Positions 52,923 to 63,271 are shown, counted from the stretch's first letter. The stretch: 64,000 nucleotides of DNA from Candidatus Dormiibacterota bacterium (GCA_035532035.1 DATKRS010000004.1:186001-250000); one strand, 5' to 3'. The notes: generated by a model from the letters alone, not told the origin. A program made the numbers and translations.

Positions 52923-55900
52923 CTACGAGATTGCCGAAGCCACTTCTGCATATCTGCAAAGCAGGTTTACGAGCGCCATCTGTTCCGGCGTAGAACAGCG
53001 CGTGTCGAGTAGACGCGGCGAGCAAACCAATACGCTCATGCATTGTGCGCGCGAGATCGCAACGTTGAAGCGGTTCTTTTCGAAGAGAAAGCCGATGTCA
53101 CGTGGGATATCGTCGCCGCTGGAAGTCGCCATCGAGTAGAAGACGACCGGCGCCTCCTGGCCCTGAAACTTGTCGACGGTTCCGACCGCTACGCCGTGCA
53201 GTCCGGCGTCGGTCAAACGCTGCGCTATGAGCCGGCGCTGCGCGTTGTACGGTGAGACGACGAGCACGTCGCGCGGCGTGAAGGCTCTTGGCTTCGGCGT
53301 CGGATCGTCGGGCGCCGCGACCGTAACGGTTCCGTCGAGGAGCCGCGTTATCTGGCCGACGACGGCGTCGGCTTCCTCCCGCGATTCGCGGCGATTACCT
53401 TCGTGCTCGACGGCGAGATACCGCAGCCCGCTGCCGGTAAGGCCTTGTGATTCGACGCGGTTGGCGTACGTCGCTTCACTCGCCTGCAGGCGGCCTGCGT
53501 AGACGCTCTCCGAGATGAACGCGCAAATCTGCGGATGCATCCGGTGCGAACGGTCGAGAAAGACGCCGCGCTCGGGCGGAACGGTCGCATCGTCGCCGAG
53601 CAGATGCGCGAGCACCGAGAGCTCGACGCCGGGCGGATGCGCGCCCTGCGAGACCTGTGCGAGCTGCAGCGGGTCGCCCAAGAGAATGATGTTGTGCGCG
53701 CAGGGAGCGCACGCGATCGCGTTGGCGAGCGAGACCTGCCCCGCCTCGTCGATGACGAGATAGTCGTACGCGCCGGCAAGCTCCTCGCGCGAGAGAGCCC
53801 AGGCGGTGCCTGCTGCAAGGTCGTGCGGCTCGGACAACGCGTCGGCTGCAAACGAGGGCGTGACGAACGATTCTGCCAGCTTCGACTCGAAGCGAGAACC
53901 CTCGGTCGTGTTGCTGCAGCGCTGGATGCCGCGAAAGCTCTGCCCGCGACGCACCGCCTGCTCCTCGATCTTGTGGAGCAGGTTGTGGATGACCTTATGT
54001 GAGTTGGCGAGAACCGCGACGCGTTTGCCCGCGCGAAGCAAATCGAGCACGACGCCGGCACCCGTCGTACTCTTGCCGCTGCCCGGCGGCCCTTGAACGA
54101 AGAGATAACTCTCGTCGAGACGCTGCGCGATCTCGGCGATCGACTCCGCATCGGGAACCTCGGGCTGCAGGCTCTGCCCGAGCGTTCCGCCGAGCAGTCG
54201 TGGTAAGCGCCGAAGGAGCACGTCGGCGAGGGCGCGATGGCGAACTTCGAAGGTGCCGTCGAGATACGATTCGGCGACGCGCTGCAGCGCCGCGCGAATG
54301 GTCTCGGATGGGATCGCCGGGACCGGCGCGAGCGCGTCCAGATCCGCAGGCTCAACGCCCCCACGAAGCTTTACGTGGATTTCGAGCACGTCGTCGTCGA
54401 CGGCGACGATCGTTCCCGCTTCGTGTGGGCGTGCCGCATCGAGCACGTAAGCGCCGTCACCGGCTTGAAATCCGTGGAGCTGGTCGGGAAAAGCGAAGAC
54501 GTAGACGGGGTTCTGCCTGGGCGTCTGCCGGTACGGCGGGACGTCGCTGCGATGGCGAAGGCCCCCGATTGCTTTGCGATCGAACTCGACGAGCTCGTCG
54601 CGGTTTTCGCAGCGGTAGAAGTACGCCCACCAAGCCGGCTTGTCGTCGCGACGGTGATAGTCGAGCAGGTGGCCGAGAAGCCAGCGCGCGCGAAATCGCT
54701 CGTCGGCGTCGCGCAGGGCGATGGCGCTTTGGGGCGCGTCGAGCCCCGCGAGGAGCGCGTCGCGAAGCTGCGCGCGCTCGTCGTTTGCGTCCTGCGCGGT
54801 CTCTGCGCGCGGCTCGGGCGCTGGCTTCCATGGGAAATCGCCGTCGCGCCCAACGAGCTCGGCTCTGCGCGCGAGGAGCCAGTCGCGCAGCCGGAGCGTC
54901 GAGATGCAGTCATCGCGATTGTAGTTCTCGATGTCGACGAGAATGTTGTCATCGCCGTCGATCAGCCACGACTCGAACATGAGAATGGAGTCGTCGCCGC
55001 GTTGGGTCTTGGTCTCGCGGGCGAAGCCGTAAAACGGCTCGAGCTTCTTGATCGAGTACGACGGCTGCGAGATGCGCAGGCCTTGCCGGACCACGGCGTA
55101 CAGGTCGACGAAGGACTGCGCTCGGAGCAGGGTGTCGAGTTCCTCCTCGCGCGTTGCGTAGAAACCTGCGAGCCGTTTGAGCGCCGCCGTCTCGTACGGT
55201 GCGTAGTGGTAGACGTGCATGCCGGGATACTCGTCATGGCGGCGCGCGAGGAGATCGACGAGGGCCTCGAGGGCAGAACGCTCGTCGCGTCCGCTCTTGG
55301 CCCAGTACGCGACGTAACGCCTCTCCTTCGCAAAATAGACGCCGAAGAGATACTCGAGCCCGCGCTGCGGCGTGTAGAGCGGATCGCCTTCCATATCGAA
55401 GAAAACATCGCCCTCGTCCGGAGGCGGAAGCAGTGCGAAACCGCGCGACGGCTGCGCGGGAAGCAGTTCGTACGTCAGTACTCCCGTCGTGCGCTGGCCG
55501 TGCTGCAGCCGCGCTTGGTCGCACAAGCGCTCGAAGGTCTCGGGCGTCATGCCGTTGGGGCGTCGCTCTTCACCGGCAGTCGCGAGCTGCGCGATCGTCG
55601 TAATGCTCGCGCTGCCGAGCCGGCGAATATCGTCGCGGCGCATCAGCGCGACGAGCCCGAGGTAGTCGTCGGCATCGCGGCGCGCGTCGCAGACGGGGTT
55701 CCAGCGGCAGACGCGGCAGTGCGATACCTCGTGCGGGTAGGCGCCGTTGCGCCCTCCGTCGACGTGCGCGAGAAATCCCGCCTTGAGGTGGCGGTAGTAT
55801 GCGAGATAGCTTGCGAGTTCGTAGGGCGCTTCGACGTTGCTGCCCGGAACGACGACGATCCGCCGCGGCATGCCGCCCTGCAGGCGCGCGACGTGCTCGC

Positions 55901-56366
55901 TGTAGTTGCACAGTTGCACGAGAAAGTACGTCTTCGTCGCGAGCGCGAGCTTCGTGTCGAGCACCTCGTAGCTCCACGGCCAGCGGGCGCTCGGGGTATC
56001 GACGCGCCGCAGGAAGTCGGCGTGGCCCATGAACGTTCCGTCGAAGAACGTCGCTTGGTAGATGATCTCCGCCCCGCGCTCCATCGCCGCGAGCGTCGCG
56101 TGCTCGGCCTCGTAGAGGCCCTGCGCATCGTGCCGATCTCCGGCGGGAATCTCGCAGACCCCGAGACCCCGCGATCGCAGGATCTCCAGATAGCGGCGCT
56201 CGTGCTCGTCGCCTTTGCGCGCGAGCAGTTGCGCCGTTTCGTCCGGCTCGGGCCGTAGGCGCTGCCGCTCCGTCGCCTCGCGCTCGAGCTGCGTCAGGGC
56301 TGCGCACTCGAGAAACCCGTTTAGGTCGGACGCCGAGAAGACGAGACGACCGTCGATGCGCTGCAT
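52923..56366 (-). CDS. TM0106-type RecB-like nuclease fused to a superfamily 1 helicase
   Basis: 1147 residues in three parts. Residues 1-about 260 are a RecB/Cas4-like nuclease-type domain (YEVLDTKLALATKTYFLVQLCNYSEHV, then cysteines in HCRVCRWNPVCDARRD). The middle holds an RNase H/DEDD-like exonuclease region (VFFDMEGDPLY, later YNRDDCISTLRLRDWL). The C-terminal third is a DNA2/UPF1-like SF1 helicase: Walker A VQGPPGSGKSTTG, Walker B YLVIDEAGQV, LLGDPLQLAQV, DRSHRMHPQI, VGTVDKFQGQEAPVVFYSM and FNVAISRAQ. It probably processes DNA ends or foreign DNA; the physiological role of the family is not established. Confidence 0.88.
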   Translation of the reverse strand: MQRIDGRLVFSASDLNGFLECAALTQLEREATERQRLRPEPDETAQLLARKGDEHERRYLEILRSRGLGVCEIPAGDRHDAQGLYEAEHATLAAMERGAEIIYQATFFDGTFMGHADFLRRVDTPSARWPWSYEVLDTKLALATKTYFLVQLCNYSEHVARLQGGMPRRIVVVPGSNVEAPYELASYLAYYRHLKAGFLAHVDGGRNGAYPHEVSHCRVCRWNPVCDARRDADDYLGLVALMRRDDIRRLGSASITTIAQLATAGEERRPNGMTPETFERLCDQARLQHGQRTTGVLTYELLPAQPSRGFALLPPPDEGDVFFDMEGDPLYTPQRGLEYLFGVYFAKERRYVAYWAKSGRDERSALEALVDLLARRHDEYPGMHVYHYAPYETAALKRLAGFYATREEELDTLLRAQSFVDLYAVVRQGLRISQPSYSIKKLEPFYGFARETKTQRGDDSILMFESWLIDGDDNILVDIENYNRDDCISTLRLRDWLLARRAELVGRDGDFPWKPAPEPRAETAQDANDERAQLRDALLAGLDAPQSAIALRDADERFRARWLLGHLLDYHRRDDKPAWWAYFYRCENRDELVEFDRKAIGGLRHRSDVPPYRQTPRQNPVYVFAFPDQLHGFQAGDGAYVLDAARPHEAGTIVAVDDDVLEIHVKLRGGVEPADLDALAPVPAIPSETIRAALQRVAESYLDGTFEVRHRALADVLLRRLPRLLGGTLGQSLQPEVPDAESIAEIAQRLDESYLFVQGPPGSGKSTTGAGVVLDLLRAGKRVAVLANSHKVIHNLLHKIEEQAVRRGQSFRGIQRCSNTTEGSRFESKLAESFVTPSFAADALSEPHDLAAGTAWALSREELAGAYDYLVIDEAGQVSLANAIACAPCAHNIILLGDPLQLAQVSQGAHPPGVELSVLAHLLGDDATVPPERGVFLDRSHRMHPQICAFISESVYAGRLQASEATYANRVESQGLTGSGLRYLAVEHEGNRRESREEADAVVGQITRLLDGTVTVAAPDDPTPKPRAFTPRDVLVVSPYNAQRRLIAQRLTDAGLHGVAVGTVDKFQGQEAPVVFYSMATSSGDDIPRDIGFLFEKNRFNVAISRAQCMSVLVCSPRLLDTRCSTPEQMALVNLLCRYAEVASAIS

Positions 56367-56429: not shown

Positions 56430-56499
56430 TTTCCTTACGTTTCCCTCGCCGTTTCCTTACGGACCGGCCCTATGCCGTGCGTGACGCCTGGCGTAGGTT
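56430..56499 (+). promoter_or_regulatory. Tandem repeats and -10 box upstream of the first peptide gene
   Basis: TTTCCTTACG occurs at 56430-56439 and 56452-56461, with a partial third copy TTTCCCTCG at 56440, so TTTCC recurs roughly every 11 bp on one face of the helix. TAGGTT (56494-56499) is a -10 candidate 6 nt before the ATG at 56506. The arrangement suits a tandem-binding activator such as an OmpR-family regulator. Confidence 0.45.
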
Positions 56500-56505
56500 G
56501 GAAGT

Positions 56506-56661
56506 ATGTTCACTTTCTTCCTCAGTCTTCTCATGGGCTTCGCGGGCGTGCACGGGATGGATACGGGCGTCGGCCCGACCGGGGCCGCCGTCCGCTCGAC
56601 CTCGATCCAGCCTCCCCATCACGCTCGCATCATGGACGTGGGCACGCTTCCGACCGGCTAA
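56506..56661 (+). CDS. Small hydrophobic peptide, putative secreted signal
   Basis: A 51-residue reading frame: MFTFFLSLLMGFAGVHGMDT, then a Pro/Gly/His-rich tail ending in VGTLPTG. The first 16 residues form a hydrophobic segment like a short signal sequence. It has no clear Shine-Dalgarno site but a -10 box sits exactly 6 nt upstream, which would fit a leaderless mRNA. It is 49 nt before the TPR gene of the amidase/regulator operon. The N-terminus resembles that of the 36-residue peptide at 61373 (M-F/L-T, then L-x-L and G-F-A with a nearby His). Too short for certainty. Confidence 0.45.
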   Translation: MFTFFLSLLMGFAGVHGMDTGVGPTGAAVRSTSIQPPHHARIMDVGTLPTG

Positions 56662-56710
56662 GGACTGCCGGCCCCAGGAGGGTGCCGCGCGCAGCGACAA
56701 GCCTTCGCAC

Positions 56711-58009
56711 ATGGCTGCGAAGGCCTCGACCCTGGGTCTGAGGATAGCACGCGAGGCGTTCCTACGCGCGGACTATGACGCGTGCGTCGAGATCCTTTGC
56801 GGGCGTCGCGGCGCCGAAAGAGACTTTCTCCTAGCCAGAACCTACCTTCGTATGCGGCGTCACGACGACGCGGAACGCGTTCTGCGCGCATCGCGAGCGA
56901 AGAAGCGCTCCACCTGGGCGGCGCTTGCGGGCGCAGCGATCGGGCGCCAAGGCGACACCGACGGCGCCAGGGCGCTCATCGAGGTCGCACTCGCAACGGC
57001 GAGAACGCTAGAAGAGCGCGCAGAGGCCCGCTATCAGCGGGCTTTGCTGCACTGGATGCTCCACGAGACCGACGCTGCGAGCGCGATCTTGGAGAACGAG
57101 GACTTCGGCACGTTCTCGGCAGTTGCCGAAGAGCTTCGCGCCTGGCTTGCCGTCGAGCGCGCGGATTACGCAAGCGCGATCAGGCGCTTCGAGCAGGCGG
57201 CGACCCTCGCGGGCGCAGATCTCATGGTGGTCACGGCATCGCTCTCGAATGCAGCGATCTACGCGCGCGAGATGTACATCCCGGCGGTGATGTCGGGCGT
57301 CCTGCATCGCGTGGAGAGCGTCGCTCGAACGCCGTATCTCGAGCTCACGCTCTACCAAATCACGCGCGCTGCAGCATGGTTTGCGGCAATCGACGGCGAT
57401 TTCGTTCGAGCGATGCAGCAGTTCAGCGCGCTGGAGTCGTTCCGCGTGGAGCGATCGTGGCACGTCTTCGCCCTTTGCGATCGCGCATATCTCTCGCTCG
57501 CGCTAGGTGAAGACGTCAACGGATGGCTCGTCGCCGATCAAGCCCTCGCGCTTGCGGACCAGCTCGAATGGGAGACGTTCAAGGGCAGCGAGCGCGTTGC
57601 GCTGCTCTATCTCGCAAACGTCTTCGCGCTGCATCGTCCTCTGCAGGCGCAGCGGTGCTGGCGCCGCTACAAAGCCGTTCCCGAACCAGGCCCATTCTCC
57701 GCGGCGTTTCGGCATGAGCCGCACGTGGAAGCGTGGGAACATTTTACGGCCGGCTTGGTGGAAAAGGGATTGGGCAACCCGCCGGCTGCAGCGGCGCACT
57801 TCAATCGCGCCTACTCGATTTACCGGCGACTCGGCTTCGAATGGCGTGCGGTGCTGACGCTCGTCGCGCAGCGCGGCGTCATTCCCGACGACCGCACCTA
57901 CGACGAGTACATCGACACGGTGCTGCGCCGCTTCCCCAACTCGTGGCTCGGCCTCATCGTGGACCGGGAGCGCCGCCACGCACGCGCGCCGGTGACGAGT
58001 ATCGCATGA
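56711..58009 (+). CDS. TPR-repeat protein
   Basis: About 432 residues from ATG 56711, almost entirely helical with TPR-like repeats (AREAFLRADYDACVEIL, DFLLARTYLRMRRHDDAERVLRAS, ALLHWMLHETDAASAIL, and further copies to the end). It resembles the TPR region of MalT/LAL regulators without their ATPase or DNA-binding domains. It overlaps the amidase gene by ATGA. TPR proteins of this kind can bind short peptides, as in the RRNPP regulators, so a peptide-receptor or scaffold role is possible but inferred. Confidence 0.75.
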   Translation: MAAKASTLGLRIAREAFLRADYDACVEILCGRRGAERDFLLARTYLRMRRHDDAERVLRASRAKKRSTWAALAGAAIGRQGDTDGARALIEVALATARTLEERAEARYQRALLHWMLHETDAASAILENEDFGTFSAVAEELRAWLAVERADYASAIRRFEQAATLAGADLMVVTASLSNAAIYAREMYIPAVMSGVLHRVESVARTPYLELTLYQITRAAAWFAAIDGDFVRAMQQFSALESFRVERSWHVFALCDRAYLSLALGEDVNGWLVADQALALADQLEWETFKGSERVALLYLANVFALHRPLQAQRCWRRYKAVPEPGPFSAAFRHEPHVEAWEHFTAGLVEKGLGNPPAAAAHFNRAYSIYRRLGFEWRAVLTLVAQRGVIPDDRTYDEYIDTVLRRFPNSWLGLIVDRERRHARAPVTSIA

Positions 58010-58623
58010 TCGCAGCTCTCGCGTCGGCTTCGGCGACGGCGCCGCTCGTGCGTGGGTACGACGTGCTGATCTCCGCCGGGCACGAGGGGCGGCCGCAGAG
58101 TTGCGCGCGCTTTCCGGAGCGTCACTGCTATCTTGGCACGGCGGGCGAGCGGGAATGGACGCCGATCGTCGCGGACGCGGCGACGCATGTCTTGCGCGAT
58201 TACGGCATTCGCGTCGTACGTCTTCCGGCAGATTATCCCGACGACTATGCCGTTCGTGTAGCCGTATTCATCCATTTCGACGGCTCGGCGGTGCCGTGCA
58301 GAAGTGGCGCATCGGTCGGCTACCCGAGCGCTAAGGACCGCTTCACGGCGGCGCTCTGGAAACGGCTCTACGGCAGGTTCTTTCGCTTCGGCTTTCGACC
58401 CGACAACTTCAGCATCGGTCTGCGCGAGTACTACGGCTACGACCAGGCGCGCACGGCCGACGGCGCGTACGTGCTGGAGCTGGGCGAGATGACGTGCCCC
58501 GCGCAGCGAGGGTGGCTCGCGCCGCGCTTGCGCTGGATCGGGGCGCTCGTCGCATTCTGGATCGGCCGCGTCATCGATCGTGACGTTCCGTTCCCACGCC
58601 GGCAAGCGGGTGATCCGAGATGA
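58006..58623 (+). CDS. N-acetylmuramoyl-L-alanine amidase-like (Amidase_3) protein
   Basis: 205 residues with the zinc amidase pattern: His26 in ISAGHEG, Glu48 in TAGERE, His90 in FIHFDGS and catalytic-type Glu161 in LELGEMT, spaced as in Amidase_3 enzymes. It lacks a convincing signal peptide, though the N-terminus is Ala-rich, and has a hydrophobic segment near the C-terminus (LRWIGALVAFWIGRVI). It should cut the bond between MurNAc and the stem peptide. It overlaps both neighbours by ATGA, so it is tightly coupled to the TPR and LuxR-type regulator genes. Confidence 0.72.
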   Translation: MIAALASASATAPLVRGYDVLISAGHEGRPQSCARFPERHCYLGTAGEREWTPIVADAATHVLRDYGIRVVRLPADYPDDYAVRVAVFIHFDGSAVPCRSGASVGYPSAKDRFTAALWKRLYGRFFRFGFRPDNFSIGLREYYGYDQARTADGAYVLELGEMTCPAQRGWLAPRLRWIGALVAFWIGRVIDRDVPFPRRQAGDPR

Positions 58624-61271
58624 TCCGCCCGGTCCGCCCCGACGGCCGCATCGAAACCGGCGGGACGTTCAAGCCGATCCCGCGGCCGCGCGTGGTAGAT
58701 CGCATCGCGGCTGCCGCCACGCAGCGCATCGCATTGATCGTCGCTCCTGCCGGATACGGGAAATCGGTTGCGCTGTCGCAGTTCTTGCGAGAGCTCGACG
58801 AATCGTGGCTGCGCTTCGACTTGCGTCCCGAGCACGACACGCTGCCCGGTGTATTGCGCGGCTTCGCCGAGGCGATTGAGGAGGCCGCGCCCGAAGCTCG
58901 GCGCACCCTCGCGGGCGCATACGAACGCAACCGCGCATCGCCCACCGCCGGCTCCGATCTCGCACTCTGGATGTACCAGCATCTGAAGGCGTGGCGTGGA
59001 ACGATCGCCGTCGACGACCTGCACGTCGCTGAGAAGGACCCCGAGGTCGTCCGCTTCTTCGTCGCGCTCATCGAGCGAACGAAGACGCACATTCGCTGGA
59101 TCGTCTCGACGCGCAGCGCCGCCGGGCTCCCGGTCGGGACGTGGCTCGCGTACGGCGATTGCGACCTCATGATCGACGAGCGCGATCTCTGCTTCACGAC
59201 CGAGGAGGCGAAACAAGCTGCTGCGGCGTTCAAGCTGGGCGTACGTGAAGAAGAGCTGCGCTCGCTGCTGGATCTCACCGAAGGATGGCCGACGGCGCTG
59301 AGCTTCGCGCTGCGCACGTCGACGCGCTCGGTGGATCTGCGATCGATCACGACGATGACGCGCGAGATGATCTATCAGTACCTCGCGGAGCAGGTGTACC
59401 GTTCCCTCAGTGCTGAGGAGCGTGAGTTTCTCGAGGCGATCTCGCTGCTCTCGGAGATCGACGTCGACGTGATGGTGGCGATCGGCTTCGACCGCGCGAG
59501 GAAGCTCATCAGCGATCTGCGCGAGCGCGTTGCTTTTCTCTATGAGGTGCGACCGGGCGTCTATCGCTGTCACGACCTCTTCCGCGACTTCGTCCTGCAC
59601 CAGTTGTCGCTGGAGGGAGAAGCGGCGACGAACCGTTTGCGCTGCGTGATTGCGGGCGCGATGGAGACGCTCTCGCGACCGAACGTCGCGCTTCGGCTGT
59701 ACGCCGATGCCGGAGCGGAGGCATCGGTACTGCGCTTGGTCGAAGCGCACGGCTTCGATCTCCTCGCAACCGGTCATACGGACCTCGCGCTCACCGCAAT
59801 TGCGGCGCTCACCGAGCAGCACCGCCGCGAGCATCCCGTCGTGCTCGCCCTGCGCGGCGTGCTCGAGTCATCGATCGGCCGCTTCGCGGAAGCGGAGCCG
59901 CTGCTGATGCGCAGCCTCGAGCTCGGCCAAGACGCGGGGCTGCGTGCGGCTACTGGGATGCGCCTCGCGCTGCTCTACGTCAATCAGGGTAGGGACGCTA
60001 CCGGCGTGCTGGATCCGCTGACGGCGGACGATCGCATTCCGGCTCCGCTGCTGGCCGAGGCGCTCGCGCTGCGCGCCGTGGTCGCCGCACGGGCCGGTGA
60101 GGCGGAACGCGCGACGGAGCTTCTCGACCGGGTCGAAGCGGTCGTGCAGATGTTCGAGGAGAGCGATTCGCTCGCGCGCACGCTGCAGCGCGTCGGCGTT
60201 GCAGCCTGGGAGCTGCGCCAGGATCAGCGGGCGCGGTTCGCGCTCGCGCGCAGCGCGGAGATGGCAAACCGCCTCTCGCTCCACAGCCTCGCCTGTCTTG
60301 CGTTGGACACGCTTGCTCTGGAGGCATGGTATTGCGAGAACGACGTGCCGTACGCGTTATGGTACGCGCAGCAGGCCGCATCGGCGGCGGCGAAGTCGGG
60401 CGACATCTTCAGCATGCAGACGACGGCGCTGCGCCTGCTCGCGATCGAAACATGGCGCGGAAACGTCGAGCGCATGGTGGCACTCGAGCGCCAAGCCGGC
60501 GAGCTGCGCACGAGCGACGCCTCCCGCGGCGTGTACTTGGTCGGGAGCCATGCGTACCGTCACGCGTGGGAGGGGCGCTTTGCCGAAGCGCACAGCGCGC
60601 TCGCTACCGTGCTCGACCGCGTGACGCACGGCTTCGACAGGATCATGGCGCGAGCGGTCTACACGCTCTGCCTCTCCCTGGACGGCAAGTTCAAAGAGTC
60701 GAAGGATGAGACGGCGGCTCTGATGGAGGCCATCGACGCCGAGAAGCCGCAGCGCGACGGTTTCGCGTCGCTCGGCCTCGAGATCGCGCAACTCCTAGGC
60801 ATCCTGGCCGAGGTCGTCGCCGGCCGCAGGACGGTGGCGGCGAACCTGCTGAAGCGCCGGCCCGCGCTCTCGGGCCGCCCCAGCGCCGAAGCGCTGAGGG
60901 AAGGCGTCACCAAGCTCTTGCGCAGCGTTGAGCGCCAGCCGTACCGTCCGGCGGAGATCGAGGACGCGCTCGGGCAAGCCTCGGAGCACGCGCTCGGCGG
61001 ATTCGCCCGGCTCCTCGCGGTCGCCCAGGAGCACCTAAAGAGGAGCGGCGGCGAGGAGAGCGAGCGCGAGCGGCTGACCGAGGCGGAGATCAAAGTGATC
61101 CGGCTTCTGGCCGAGGGGCTGAGCCCGAAGGAGATCGCCGCGCAGACCGAGCGCTCGGTCTTGACCGTCCAGACGCACATCAAGCACGCCATCGCCAAGC
61201 TCAACTGCAGCGGAACGGCCGAGCTGGTCACCGCCATCCACCATCGGGGGCTCGAGGCGCTGCTCGGATAG
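58620..61271 (+). CDS. MalT/LAL-type LuxR-family transcriptional regulator
   Basis: 883 residues. An N-terminal STAND-type ATPase has Walker A APAGYGKS (residues 42-49) and Walker B TIAVDDLH (Asp132-Asp133). A long TPR-like helical region (about 340-800) probably binds the effector, and the C-terminus is a LuxR-type helix-turn-helix (LTEAEIKVIRLLAEGLSPKE, then SVLTVQTHIKHAIAKL). Such proteins are ATP- and ligand-dependent activators. It is the third gene of the TPR-amidase-regulator operon, and a peptide gene with a palindromic site lies just downstream. Confidence 0.92.
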   Translation: MIRPVRPDGRIETGGTFKPIPRPRVVDRIAAAATQRIALIVAPAGYGKSVALSQFLRELDESWLRFDLRPEHDTLPGVLRGFAEAIEEAAPEARRTLAGAYERNRASPTAGSDLALWMYQHLKAWRGTIAVDDLHVAEKDPEVVRFFVALIERTKTHIRWIVSTRSAAGLPVGTWLAYGDCDLMIDERDLCFTTEEAKQAAAAFKLGVREEELRSLLDLTEGWPTALSFALRTSTRSVDLRSITTMTREMIYQYLAEQVYRSLSAEEREFLEAISLLSEIDVDVMVAIGFDRARKLISDLRERVAFLYEVRPGVYRCHDLFRDFVLHQLSLEGEAATNRLRCVIAGAMETLSRPNVALRLYADAGAEASVLRLVEAHGFDLLATGHTDLALTAIAALTEQHRREHPVVLALRGVLESSIGRFAEAEPLLMRSLELGQDAGLRAATGMRLALLYVNQGRDATGVLDPLTADDRIPAPLLAEALALRAVVAARAGEAERATELLDRVEAVVQMFEESDSLARTLQRVGVAAWELRQDQRARFALARSAEMANRLSLHSLACLALDTLALEAWYCENDVPYALWYAQQAASAAAKSGDIFSMQTTALRLLAIETWRGNVERMVALERQAGELRTSDASRGVYLVGSHAYRHAWEGRFAEAHSALATVLDRVTHGFDRIMARAVYTLCLSLDGKFKESKDETAALMEAIDAEKPQRDGFASLGLEIAQLLGILAEVVAGRRTVAANLLKRRPALSGRPSAEALREGVTKLLRSVERQPYRPAEIEDALGQASEHALGGFARLLAVAQEHLKRSGGEESERERLTEAEIKVIRLLAEGLSPKEIAAQTERSVLTVQTHIKHAIAKLNCSGTAELVTAIHHRGLEALLG

Positions 61272-61273
61272 AG

Positions 61274-61289
61274 TGCCTGAAAACAGGCA
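61274..61289 (+). terminator. Short hairpin after the LuxR-type regulator
   Basis: TGCCTG-AAAA-CAGGCA (61274-61289) forms a 6-bp stem with a 4-nt loop just after the stop codon. It is weak as a terminator, with no T run, and lies directly against the palindrome that follows. Confidence 0.4.
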
Positions 61290-61335
61290 TACCCAAATTT
61301 GGGTAGAGACAGTAGCCGAGCCGCTCGGCTATTCT
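61290..61335 (+). promoter_or_regulatory. Palindromic operator and promoter of the second peptide gene
   Basis: TACCCAAATTTGGGTA (61290-61305) is a perfect 16-bp palindrome. GAGACA (61306-61311), an 18-bp spacer and TATTCT (61330-61335) form a promoter candidate. The palindrome centre would lie about 44 bp before the predicted start, where LuxR-type activators usually bind. A second inverted repeat, TAGCCGAG/CTCGGCTA (61313-61331), overlaps the -10 box and could bind a repressor. Confidence 0.55.
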
Positions 61336-61372
61336 GATGGCGAGAACCTCTCTACCCAGGAGAACCAACAAC

Positions 61373-61483
61373 ATGTTAACTGCCATGCTCGCCCTCGCCG
61401 GGTTCGCAATGCACATCCTCGGAGGAGTCGCCGCGCTCCCCGGCCTCGTCGTGGAGATCTCACCGCCGGCTGGCGTGGGCTAA
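61373..61483 (+). CDS. Small hydrophobic peptide downstream of the LuxR-type regulator
   Basis: A 36-residue reading frame: MLTAMLALAGFAMHILGG, then VAALPGLVVEISPPAGVG. AGGAG (61358-61362) lies 10 nt before the ATG, giving decent translation evidence. The whole sequence is hydrophobic except one Glu and one His, like a secreted or membrane peptide. Its N-terminus resembles that of the 51-residue peptide at 56506. It is preceded by the palindromic operator and promoter. A role as a signal sensed by the LuxR/TPR proteins is conjecture. Confidence 0.5.
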   Translation: MLTAMLALAGFAMHILGGVAALPGLVVEISPPAGVG

Positions 61484-61528: not shown

Positions 61529-62515
61529 GTGCCGGATCCAGAAATTACAATTACCACGCTCGGCGAGGTCCTGGGACGGGACCTCGGAACGCTGAAACGC
61601 AGCGCGATCGAGCAACTAACGCTCCCTGAGCTGAGCGGCGATACCGCGACCGACGCGGCGCTGGAGACGCTCTTGGATCGGATGTGCCTCTCGCTCGCAC
61701 TCGCGAAGCCGATCGGGTTGGTGACGTGGGCGGAGCGTGAGGCGCGCCGGGTCGGGCGCGCGGGGGTGAGCGATATGCTCTCCGCCGCAGCGCATGCGAT
61801 CTCGGTTGCTGCAGGATCGTACTCGATAGATCGCCCGCGGGTCGTGGCCTCTCTCGACCTTCTTGCAGCCGAGGCGCAGCGCGCCGTGTTCGGGACGCCC
61901 TCCGAGGCGACGACGCAGACGGAGGTGGACCGAGCGGCGGACGTGCTGATGGCAATGCTTGCCGAGCGCGATGCGGCGACGAGTTGTCACTCGAAGGCTA
62001 CCGCGGTGTGGGCGCGCCGTCTCGCGACGGCACTTGGATTGGATGCCGACGGCGTTGAGTTCGTCGAGCTGTGCGGTCTCTTGGCCGACGTCGGCAAGAT
62101 CGCAACGCCTGACGCGATCCTGAACAAGCCCGGACCTCTGAGTCCGGACGAGTGGACCGTGATACAGGCGCACTCCGCGGGCGGAGCGCGGATCCTCGAG
62201 CAGATTCCTTCGCTGCGCCGCTGTGCGTTCGTCGTTCGTTCCCACCACGAGCGGTTCGACGGAAAGGGCTATCCCGACCGGCTGAACGGCAATGCGATCC
62301 CGTTCGAGGCGCGGATCGTCGCGGTGGCCGATTCCTTCCACGCGATGGTGACCGAGCGTCCGTATCGCAACGCCATCTCACCTCGAGCTGCGATGAAAAT
62401 CCTCGAAGAGGGGCGCGGCACCCAGTGGGATCCGAAGATCGTGGACGCCTTCCTCGCCCTCTTCGAGCGCAAGGAGCCTGTCGCCAAGCCGCGGATGCTG
62501 CACGCCGCCGTCTAG
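61529..62515 (+). CDS. HD-GYP-type protein with degenerate HD motif
   Basis: 328 residues, GTG start with AAGGGA upstream. The C-terminal domain has His154, the HD position reading Ala186-Asp187 instead of His-Asp, His215 and an intact HHERFDGKGYP (residues 239-249), then VADSFHAMVTERPYR. HD-GYP proteins hydrolyse cyclic di-GMP with two or three metal ions; loss of the HD histidine removes a metal ligand, so activity may be lost or altered. The N-terminal 130 residues are helical and unrecognised. Confidence 0.85.
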   Translation: MPDPEITITTLGEVLGRDLGTLKRSAIEQLTLPELSGDTATDAALETLLDRMCLSLALAKPIGLVTWAEREARRVGRAGVSDMLSAAAHAISVAAGSYSIDRPRVVASLDLLAAEAQRAVFGTPSEATTQTEVDRAADVLMAMLAERDAATSCHSKATAVWARRLATALGLDADGVEFVELCGLLADVGKIATPDAILNKPGPLSPDEWTVIQAHSAGGARILEQIPSLRRCAFVVRSHHERFDGKGYPDRLNGNAIPFEARIVAVADSFHAMVTERPYRNAISPRAAMKILEEGRGTQWDPKIVDAFLALFERKEPVAKPRMLHAAV

Positions 62516-62584: not shown

Positions 62585-63271
62585 ATGAATGGGGTGACGC
62601 ACGCGCGTGTCGCGGTGGTCGACGACGACCGCATGATTCGGGAGATGCTCGAGCTTGGGCTCTCTCGCGAAGGCTTCGAGGTTGCCACGGCTGCAGACGG
62701 GCAGGCGGCGCTCGAACTCGTGCGGCGCTTCGACCCCGAGGTCATCATCCTAGATATCATGATGCCGAAGATCGACGGCTTGGCGCTCTTGCCCATGCTG
62801 CGCGAGATCAGCCACGTCCCGATCGTGATGCTGACAGCGAAGGGCGCTCTCGAAGACAAAGTGCGCAGCCTGGGTGCCGGCGCCGACGATTATCTCGTCA
62901 AGCCGTTCATCTTCGAAGAGTTGATCGCGCGCATTCAGGCAAAGCTGCGCAGGCCGCAGTTGATCGAGGAGCAAGTGCTGCACTGGCACGACCTCTCCCT
63001 CAACACCGACACGCGCGAGGTTCGCCGGGGCAAGGATCCGATCGAGCTCACGCACCGAGAGTTCGATCTTCTCTCCGTCTTCATGCGCGAGCCGCGCCGC
63101 GTGTTCAGCAAAGACCACCTTCTCGAGCTCGTCTGGGGGCACGACTTCGAAGGTGGACCGAACATCGTAGAGACGTACATCTCGTACCTGAGAGCGAAGA
63201 TCGATCGAGCGGGCGAACCCGGTTCCTTCATTCGCACGGTGCGCAGCGTCGGCTACGGCCTCTCGCAATAG
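62585..63271 (+). CDS. OmpR/PhoB-family response regulator
   Basis: 228 residues: receiver domain with DDD (residues 13-15), phospho-acceptor Asp57 in VIILDIMMP and Lys in LVKPF, then a winged-helix domain ending RTVRSVGYGLS. It overlaps the downstream kinase start by 1 nt (TAGTG) and forms a two-component pair with it. Tandem TTTCC repeats upstream of the peptide gene at 56430 would suit a regulator of this class, but a link is speculative. Confidence 0.93.
   Translation: MNGVTHARVAVVDDDRMIREMLELGLSREGFEVATAADGQAALELVRRFDPEVIILDIMMPKIDGLALLPMLREISHVPIVMLTAKGALEDKVRSLGAGADDYLVKPFIFEELIARIQAKLRRPQLIEEQVLHWHDLSLNTDTREVRRGKDPIELTHREFDLLSVFMREPRRVFSKDHLLELVWGHDFEGGPNIVETYISYLRAKIDRAGEPGSFIRTVRSVGYGLSQ

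Follow-up and report, generated by a model that had tools for sequence, protein, structure and literature searches.

A probable double peptide-pheromone module in Candidatus Eremiobacterota

In a 64,000-nucleotide stretch of the Candidatus Dormiibacterota bacterium assembly GCA_035532035.1 (DATKRS010000004.1:186001-250000; hereafter the window, in which all coordinates are counted), a plus-strand gene island probably encodes a double peptide-pheromone module. It would belong to a group of systems, spread through the family, in which multi-copy precursors go together with TPR-GerE or STAND-LuxR receptors. The window belongs to a 2.25-Mb genome (G000), and its named relatives are Candidatus Eremiobacterota assemblies. 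The island consists, in order, of a direct repeat, the small gene pepA, the genes of a TPR protein, an amidase-like protein and a LuxR-type regulator, a palindrome and a −10 element, the small gene pepB, and the genes of an HD-GYP-type protein and an OmpR-type regulator (Table 1). The ground for this reading is found in the sequence, as genes, their conservation, units under peptide-level selection, receptor adjacency and operator geometry, with the receptor folds taken from prediction. The original prediction, made from this DNA alone, described two small peptide genes around a TPR, amidase and LuxR operon, and every feature that it named was found in its place. It overlooked the strongest evidence, namely tandem units in the relatives of pepA and TPR-GerE systems of the same anatomy across the family.

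Tandem units in pepA and its relatives

The two units of the window pepA have the form MDxGxxPTG, and those of its congeners, two to four per precursor, appear to be held constant at the peptide level. One congener carries DSGSGPAG three times, and all 22 differences among the copies are synonymous; another carries three copies of DVQSGSPA plus a variant (17/2 synonymous/non-synonymous, three units compared); further congeners have DVG[IA]GPTG ×3 and MDSIGGPL ×2.

The same arrangement extends beyond the genus, where TPR-GerE genes are preceded by hydrophobic or lipobox-like leaders followed by GGGP-like units in up to 13 tandem copies: DSVGGGPVP ×5 (L203), VVGGGPTPAG ×9 (L209), SVGGGPP ×13 (L210), DSVGGGPP ×4 (L211) and ×7 (L220), DSVGGGLP ×3 (L225), D[TS]SGGPM ×3 (L244), EGSLPGVSGG/EGSLTNLSGG (L201) and a single MDGNGGGP in genus g25. 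Units at these loci differ almost only synonymously, with a proportion of synonymous differences (pS) of 0.57 against a non-synonymous one (pN) of 0.04 at L203, and 12/0 at each of L225 and L218. A strict motif rule finds a precursor in 33 of 53 TPR-GerE loci, compared with 6 of 556 control regions preceding other long open reading frames (ORFs), 0 on the antisense strand and 0.23 in shuffles; the rule was composed after examples had been seen and misses pepA itself in most congeners, so 33 of 53 counts what the rule catches, not every precursor, and its weight is carried by the controls rather than by the rate. In a receptor-blind search with one precursor as query, all six matches below 1e-8, the query included, lie directly upstream of a TPR-GerE gene.

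Relatives of the window TPR protein occur in 65 of the 99 family genomes, and TPR-GerE matches in 71 of the 148 phylum genomes, nearly all in the family of the window and a few in two other families. The four longer relatives scanned (507–525 aa) all end in a GerE helix-turn-helix (HTH), so the window protein is an HTH-less form of this type. The window genome holds two further TPR-GerE genes, L212 (G000:C29:37000-40500), preceded by a precursor-like ORF ending in MDGGGIPADGGGTGGGGN, and L213 (G000:C4:17500-21000), preceded by a short ORF with VLDGGGMP.

Genus g46 also has a strongly conserved promoter block, GTACTAGTATATTCGTACTAC, upstream of DSVGGGP-type precursors (L203, L209, L211, L216, L218, L220, L225, L229 and L232), and, ahead of the precursor start, what may be a hairpin (GGCGCC...GGCGCT).

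Conservation of pepB behind LuxR orthologues

On comparative evidence, pepB is a gene. The LuxR protein has orthologues with 65–94% identity in all seven congeners and 36–49% in further genera, and each of the syntenic loci examined first contains an ORF of 20–45 aa between LuxR and the next gene, with a hydrophobic N terminus and a Pro-rich C terminus that mostly ends in Gly (ISPPAGVG, TPPGSVG, DIPPSIG, VFPPTGG, VPPMGG, TPPDPF). Counted by a strict rule, a peptide with a hydrophobic N terminus and a PPxxG C terminus lies directly behind the LuxR orthologue in 41 of 49 genomes; when these regions were dinucleotide-shuffled 100 times, the count averaged 0.43 and never exceeded 2, and on the antisense strand it was 0. 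A divergent peptide form is present at L041, L042, L125 and L133. The window pepB and that of the nearest congener differ at 18 sites, distributed 3/3/12 over the codon positions (pN/pS 0.20). Small ORFs are common in GC-rich DNA and pepA of the window has an unconvincing pN/pS, which might suggest that neither frame is a gene; 41 occurrences where 0.43 are expected, the codon pattern of pepB and repeat units selected at the peptide level have already refuted this explanation by chance.

The frames' conservation and codon ratios, which the original prediction had made decisive, speak clearly for pepB; for pepA the codon ratio is weak, whereas repeat units, leader and position are kept. Both small frames emerge, as had been proposed, as conserved genes with the anatomy of pheromone precursors. 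The common start (M-F/L-T) and the GFA motif that had linked them are not conserved in orthologues; what is kept is a hydrophobic leader, often ending with His, together with C-terminal units.

Some pepB-type precursors are themselves multi-copy. In L042 the gene at the pepB position holds three copies of SVVPVGGA, with 18 synonymous and 0 non-synonymous pairwise differences between them, and in L066 it holds five of ADSAGGYVK (one with Ile). Loci of LuxR paralogues carry arrays behind lipoprotein-like leaders, including four copies of PFPVSI[QEG] plus AFPVS (L160) and arrays of MAIPSSQ/TAIPSSM (L060), IPVSNSA/IPVSLDA (L090) and AGAYPAS (L191). Searched as possible members of known repeat or lipoprotein families, the precursors gave no Pfam or NCBIfam match above cut-off.

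Behind clade-2 LuxR paralogues, ORFs with PGN/SPG repeats lie on the opposite strand (L054, L056, L058, L061, L161, L166 and L177; for example SPGxA, PGNAAAPS or PPGSPV). Their frames are irregular and lack a consistent leader, and they were not counted; they may represent a further kind of precursor or simple repeats of GC-rich DNA. In genus g25 (L129, L130, L134, L099 and L102), a tandem LuxR pair precedes pepB, its members 33–35% and about 45% identical to the window LuxR, perhaps two receptors for one peptide.

The pepB promoter and its candidate operator

At most loci an 18-bp palindrome follows shortly after the LuxR stop codon, its centre 31–32 nt before a −10-like hexamer. This places it at about −43, where class II activators of the LuxR/GerE type bind. 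The half-sites vary by genus (CTACCC...GGGTAG, CTAGTGA...TAACTAG, CTCGTCC...GGACGAG) and the geometry is constant. The window palindrome is the sole match in its genome at up to 3 mismatches, and a LuxR-blind search with CTACCCN{5,7}GGGTAGNGAC returned eight sites in 99 genomes, five of them flanked by the end of a LuxR HTH on one side and a precursor peptide on the other. The constant spacing of palindrome and −10 element makes it very likely, as originally suggested, that pepB is the target of a LuxR-type activator.

In most congeners, the half-site CTACCC recurs just before the pepB Shine-Dalgarno sequence (CTACCCAGGAGAACC; 61352-61358 in the window), perhaps as a second feedback site.

The position of pepB directly upstream of the HD-GYP gene in many genera, its hydrophobicity and the PP near its stop codon would also suit an unexported product, either a membrane microprotein or a regulatory leader, such as a Pro-Pro stalling leader, that controls the HD-GYP gene. 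This we consider very improbable. Six loci of genus g46 (L139-L142, L144 and L146) and L105 keep the peptide without any HD match, which argues against a mere HD leader; multi-copy or lipoprotein-type precursors at the same position (L042, L066, L160 and L090) would be needless for a leader or an anchor; and peptides of this kind also accompany LuxR paralogues at other places (L062, L071 and L077).

Receptor candidates for the two peptides

The TPR and STAND-type LuxR proteins had been pointed to as sensors of the peptides, and the comparative evidence upholds them as the natural receptor candidates. The LuxR protein contains a Walker A motif (APAGYGKS, residues 42-49), an AAA_22 domain and a C-terminal GerE HTH. 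Its profile matches MalT (8bob) at 2.7e-27, and its AlphaFold2 (AF2) model, with a predicted local distance difference test (pLDDT) score of 88, is matched best in the PDB by MalT (TMt 0.79). It is not MalT itself, scoring 135.5 bits against the NCBIfam MalT model, below the cut-off of 537. The sensor region matches RapH (3e-7) and RapJ (4e-6), but kinesin light chain and other TPR proteins match it just as well. The TPR protein is modelled as a TPR solenoid, and its profile had no match among PDB sequences, RRNPP proteins included. Eight OppA-like binding proteins are encoded in the window genome.

The precursors could instead be real secreted products, for example antimicrobial, structural or metal-binding repeat peptides, with the TPR and LuxR neighbours as regulators and not as peptide receptors. 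Adjacency by itself cannot separate a regulator from a receptor, structural proteins too carry Gly/Pro-rich repeats, and some of the precursors are lipoprotein-like. We judge this unlikely, since short identical units between diverged spacers, with mostly synonymous copy differences, have the look of multi-copy pheromone precursors, the unit type tracks the receptor class (GGGP-like with TPR, PPxxG-like with STAND-LuxR), and some pepB forms, at only 20 aa, are too short for a structural repeat protein.

Several points weigh against a pheromone module, in addition to the after-the-fact rule for TPR loci and its omission of most pepA congeners. The genomes compared are nearly all metagenome assemblies. 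Window pepA by itself has a pN/pS of 0.70 on 14 differences (units, 4/6); this codon signal is weak, so the case for pepA rests on orthology. Leaders were called on hydrophobicity only, and the basic residues that mark a classical signal peptide are absent from those of the window pepA and pepB. A peptide is missing at some TPR loci and, among the 49 loci examined, behind the orthologous LuxR at L136-L138 and L145. The fold search with the TPR protein returned generic TPR solenoids and not Rap in particular, and the proposed pairing of peptide and receptor is drawn from adjacency.

A scheme for the double pheromone module, in which export, cleavage points, re-import, binding and the direction of regulation are all inferred, would run as follows. 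Each peptide would start as a precursor whose hydrophobic leader serves export; after secretion, trimming would leave about 6-10 residues, MDTGVGPTG and MDVGTLPTG in the case of pepA and a stretch around SPPAGVG at the C terminus in that of pepB. The mature forms would re-enter through oligopeptide transporters and be bound by cytosolic superhelical TPR domains, those of the HTH-less TPR protein for pepA and of the STAND/LuxR protein for pepB. The LuxR protein would then activate the pepB promoter through the palindrome, which overlaps the −35 region, closing a positive feedback loop and turning on the HD-GYP gene, which is likely co-transcribed. Because that gene lies 3′ of pepB, the output would probably include turnover of cyclic di-GMP (c-di-GMP).

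Other genes of the island

ATGA overlaps had been reported throughout the operon; they join TPR to amidase and amidase to LuxR, but pepA ends 49 nt ahead of the TPR start, and pepB begins 101 nt after LuxR. The 'zinc amidase' of the original prediction does have an invariant H...E...H...E pattern, but had no match in Pfam, NCBIfam or PDB-profile searches. Its family is well conserved in relatives, and its place in the response, also proposed at the time, is not borne out: other genera have it at a different place, and no link to the signal emerged. The HD-GYP-type protein has the motif HHERFDGKGYP, but in the window genome AD replaces its HD dyad (LLADVGKI). The motif reads LLHD in the nearest congener (L034) and is intact in every relative where it was found, which would fit a possible recent loss of catalysis in the window protein. 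Divergent from the island on the minus strand, a large protein with RNase_H_2 and superfamily-1 helicase parts (52923-56366) is a neighbour kept in congeners.

Table 1. Features of the island, with their positions in the window
Feature	Position	Strand	Basis
Direct repeat TTTCCTTACG and possible −10 element, before pepA	56430-56461 (copies 56430-56439 and 56452-56461; 22-bp period); CTATGC 56470-56475	+	Conserved at this place in 4 congeners
pepA, 51-aa multi-copy precursor: hydrophobic leader MFTFFLSLLMGFAGVHG, then two units	56506-56661	+	Same-place orthologues with 2-4 units; codon test
pepA unit 1, MDTGVGPTG, candidate mature peptide	56557-56583	+	Internal repeat of pepA
pepA unit 2, MDVGTLPTG, candidate mature peptide, C-terminal	56632-56658	+	Internal repeat of pepA
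TPR protein, 432 aa, TPR-GerE relative without HTH, candidate pepA receptor	56711-58009	+	Pfam TPR_12 1.1e-5; AF2 solenoid, pLDDT 90; full-length relatives end in GerE
Amidase-like protein, 205 aa	58006-58623	+	H26, E48, H90 and E158/E161 invariant in 10 homologues; no Pfam/PDB match
MalT-like STAND/LuxR regulator, 883 aa, candidate pepB receptor and activator	58620-61271	+	GerE, AAA_22; MalT profile and fold match
Candidate operator, palindrome ATACCCAAATTTGGGTAG, 18 bp	61289-61306	.	Genome-unique; position kept, half-sites vary in relatives
−10 element TATTCT of the pepB promoter, 32 nt from palindrome centre	61330-61335	+	Promoter comparison across loci
Shine-Dalgarno sequence AGGAG of pepB	61358-61362	+	Sequence
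pepB, 36-aa precursor, hydrophobic N terminus; candidate signal C-terminal SPPAGVG (61460-61480)	61373-61483	+	Conservation, codon test, shuffles
HD-GYP-type protein, likely co-transcribed output gene	61529-62515	+	HD_5 1.1e-40; HD reads AD
OmpR-type response regulator, conserved neighbour	62585-63271	+	Domain scan; synteny

Comparison with known peptide-signalling systems

Precursors of the pepB type recall the streptococcal SHP and ComS precursors, which are hydrophobic, 20-36 aa long, expected to be active in their C-terminal part and engaged in positive feedback on their own promoter. The likeness covers size, hydrophobicity, the expected C-terminal active part and the proposed feedback; as opposed to SHP and ComS, the pepB type mostly has no basic N terminus, ends in PPxxG and would be read by a STAND-LuxR protein rather than by Rgg or ComR, and some members of the family are multi-copy or lipoprotein-like. 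Similar to MalT/LAL regulators, the LuxR protein combines a STAND ATPase bearing Walker A, a helical sensor domain and a C-terminal GerE HTH, with the difference that its ligand would be a peptide from an adjacent gene rather than maltotriose.

RRNPP(A) systems (Rap, Rgg, NprR, PlcR, PrgX, AimR and ComR) are described from Firmicutes, multi-copy propeptides included (PMC9765709, PMC10075063, PMC11343458); some precursors hold several copies of the mature peptide (PMC9765709), up to eight (PMC11343458). As in these systems, and especially in Rap-Phr with duplicated propeptides, a small, putatively exported precursor adjoins the gene of a cytosolic TPR protein, some precursors are multi-copy, and the receptors come in HTH-bearing and HTH-less forms. 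The 51 and 36 aa of pepA and pepB, like their relatives, fall within the 10-100 aa of RRNPP(A) propeptides adjoining a receptor gene; the TPR protein, at 432 aa, has the size of such receptors (about 250-500 aa with TPRs), whereas the 883-aa LuxR protein lies outside it. RRNPP(A) propeptides leave the cell through Sec or PptAB and return through Opp; here the sequences show hydrophobic and lipobox-like leaders and eight OppA-like proteins. No homology to an RRNPP(A) receptor subfamily was found, given no PDB-sequence match, a generic fold and non-specific matches of the LuxR sensor. RRNPP(A) receptors carry an N-terminal HTH, or none, as Rap; here the HTH of the relatives is a C-terminal GerE domain, and the window TPR protein has none. 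The island also differs in phylum (Candidatus Eremiobacterota), in unit motifs (DSVGGGP, PPxxG) and in the placing of the HTH on a C-terminal LuxR/GerE or STAND-LuxR protein. On account of the homology and the HTH, we class it as a peptide pheromone with a cytosolic helical-repeat receptor and not as a member of RRNPP. A literature search found no paper on peptide signalling in Eremiobacterota and no earlier description of these systems; most subscription papers were outside its reach, so this absence is not proof.

Implications

Cytosolic peptide-pheromone receptors have been described as a feature of Firmicutes, and the systems reported here, if they work as proposed, would represent an independent invention of the same principle. 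Many MalT/LAL regulators have no known signal, and for some of them at least, peptides would become a likely ligand class. The mature-peptide candidates, the operator and the promoter are legible in the sequence, which makes the proposal directly testable in a laboratory host, and synthetic peptides would offer a route into bacteria that are hard to grow. For the organisms themselves, it is likely that Candidatus Eremiobacterota, or at least one of its families, has a pheromone language of its own, written in Gly/Pro-rich multi-copy precursors and read by non-RRNPP TPR-GerE and MalT-like STAND-LuxR receptors, with several systems per genome, that arose independently of the Firmicutes invention.

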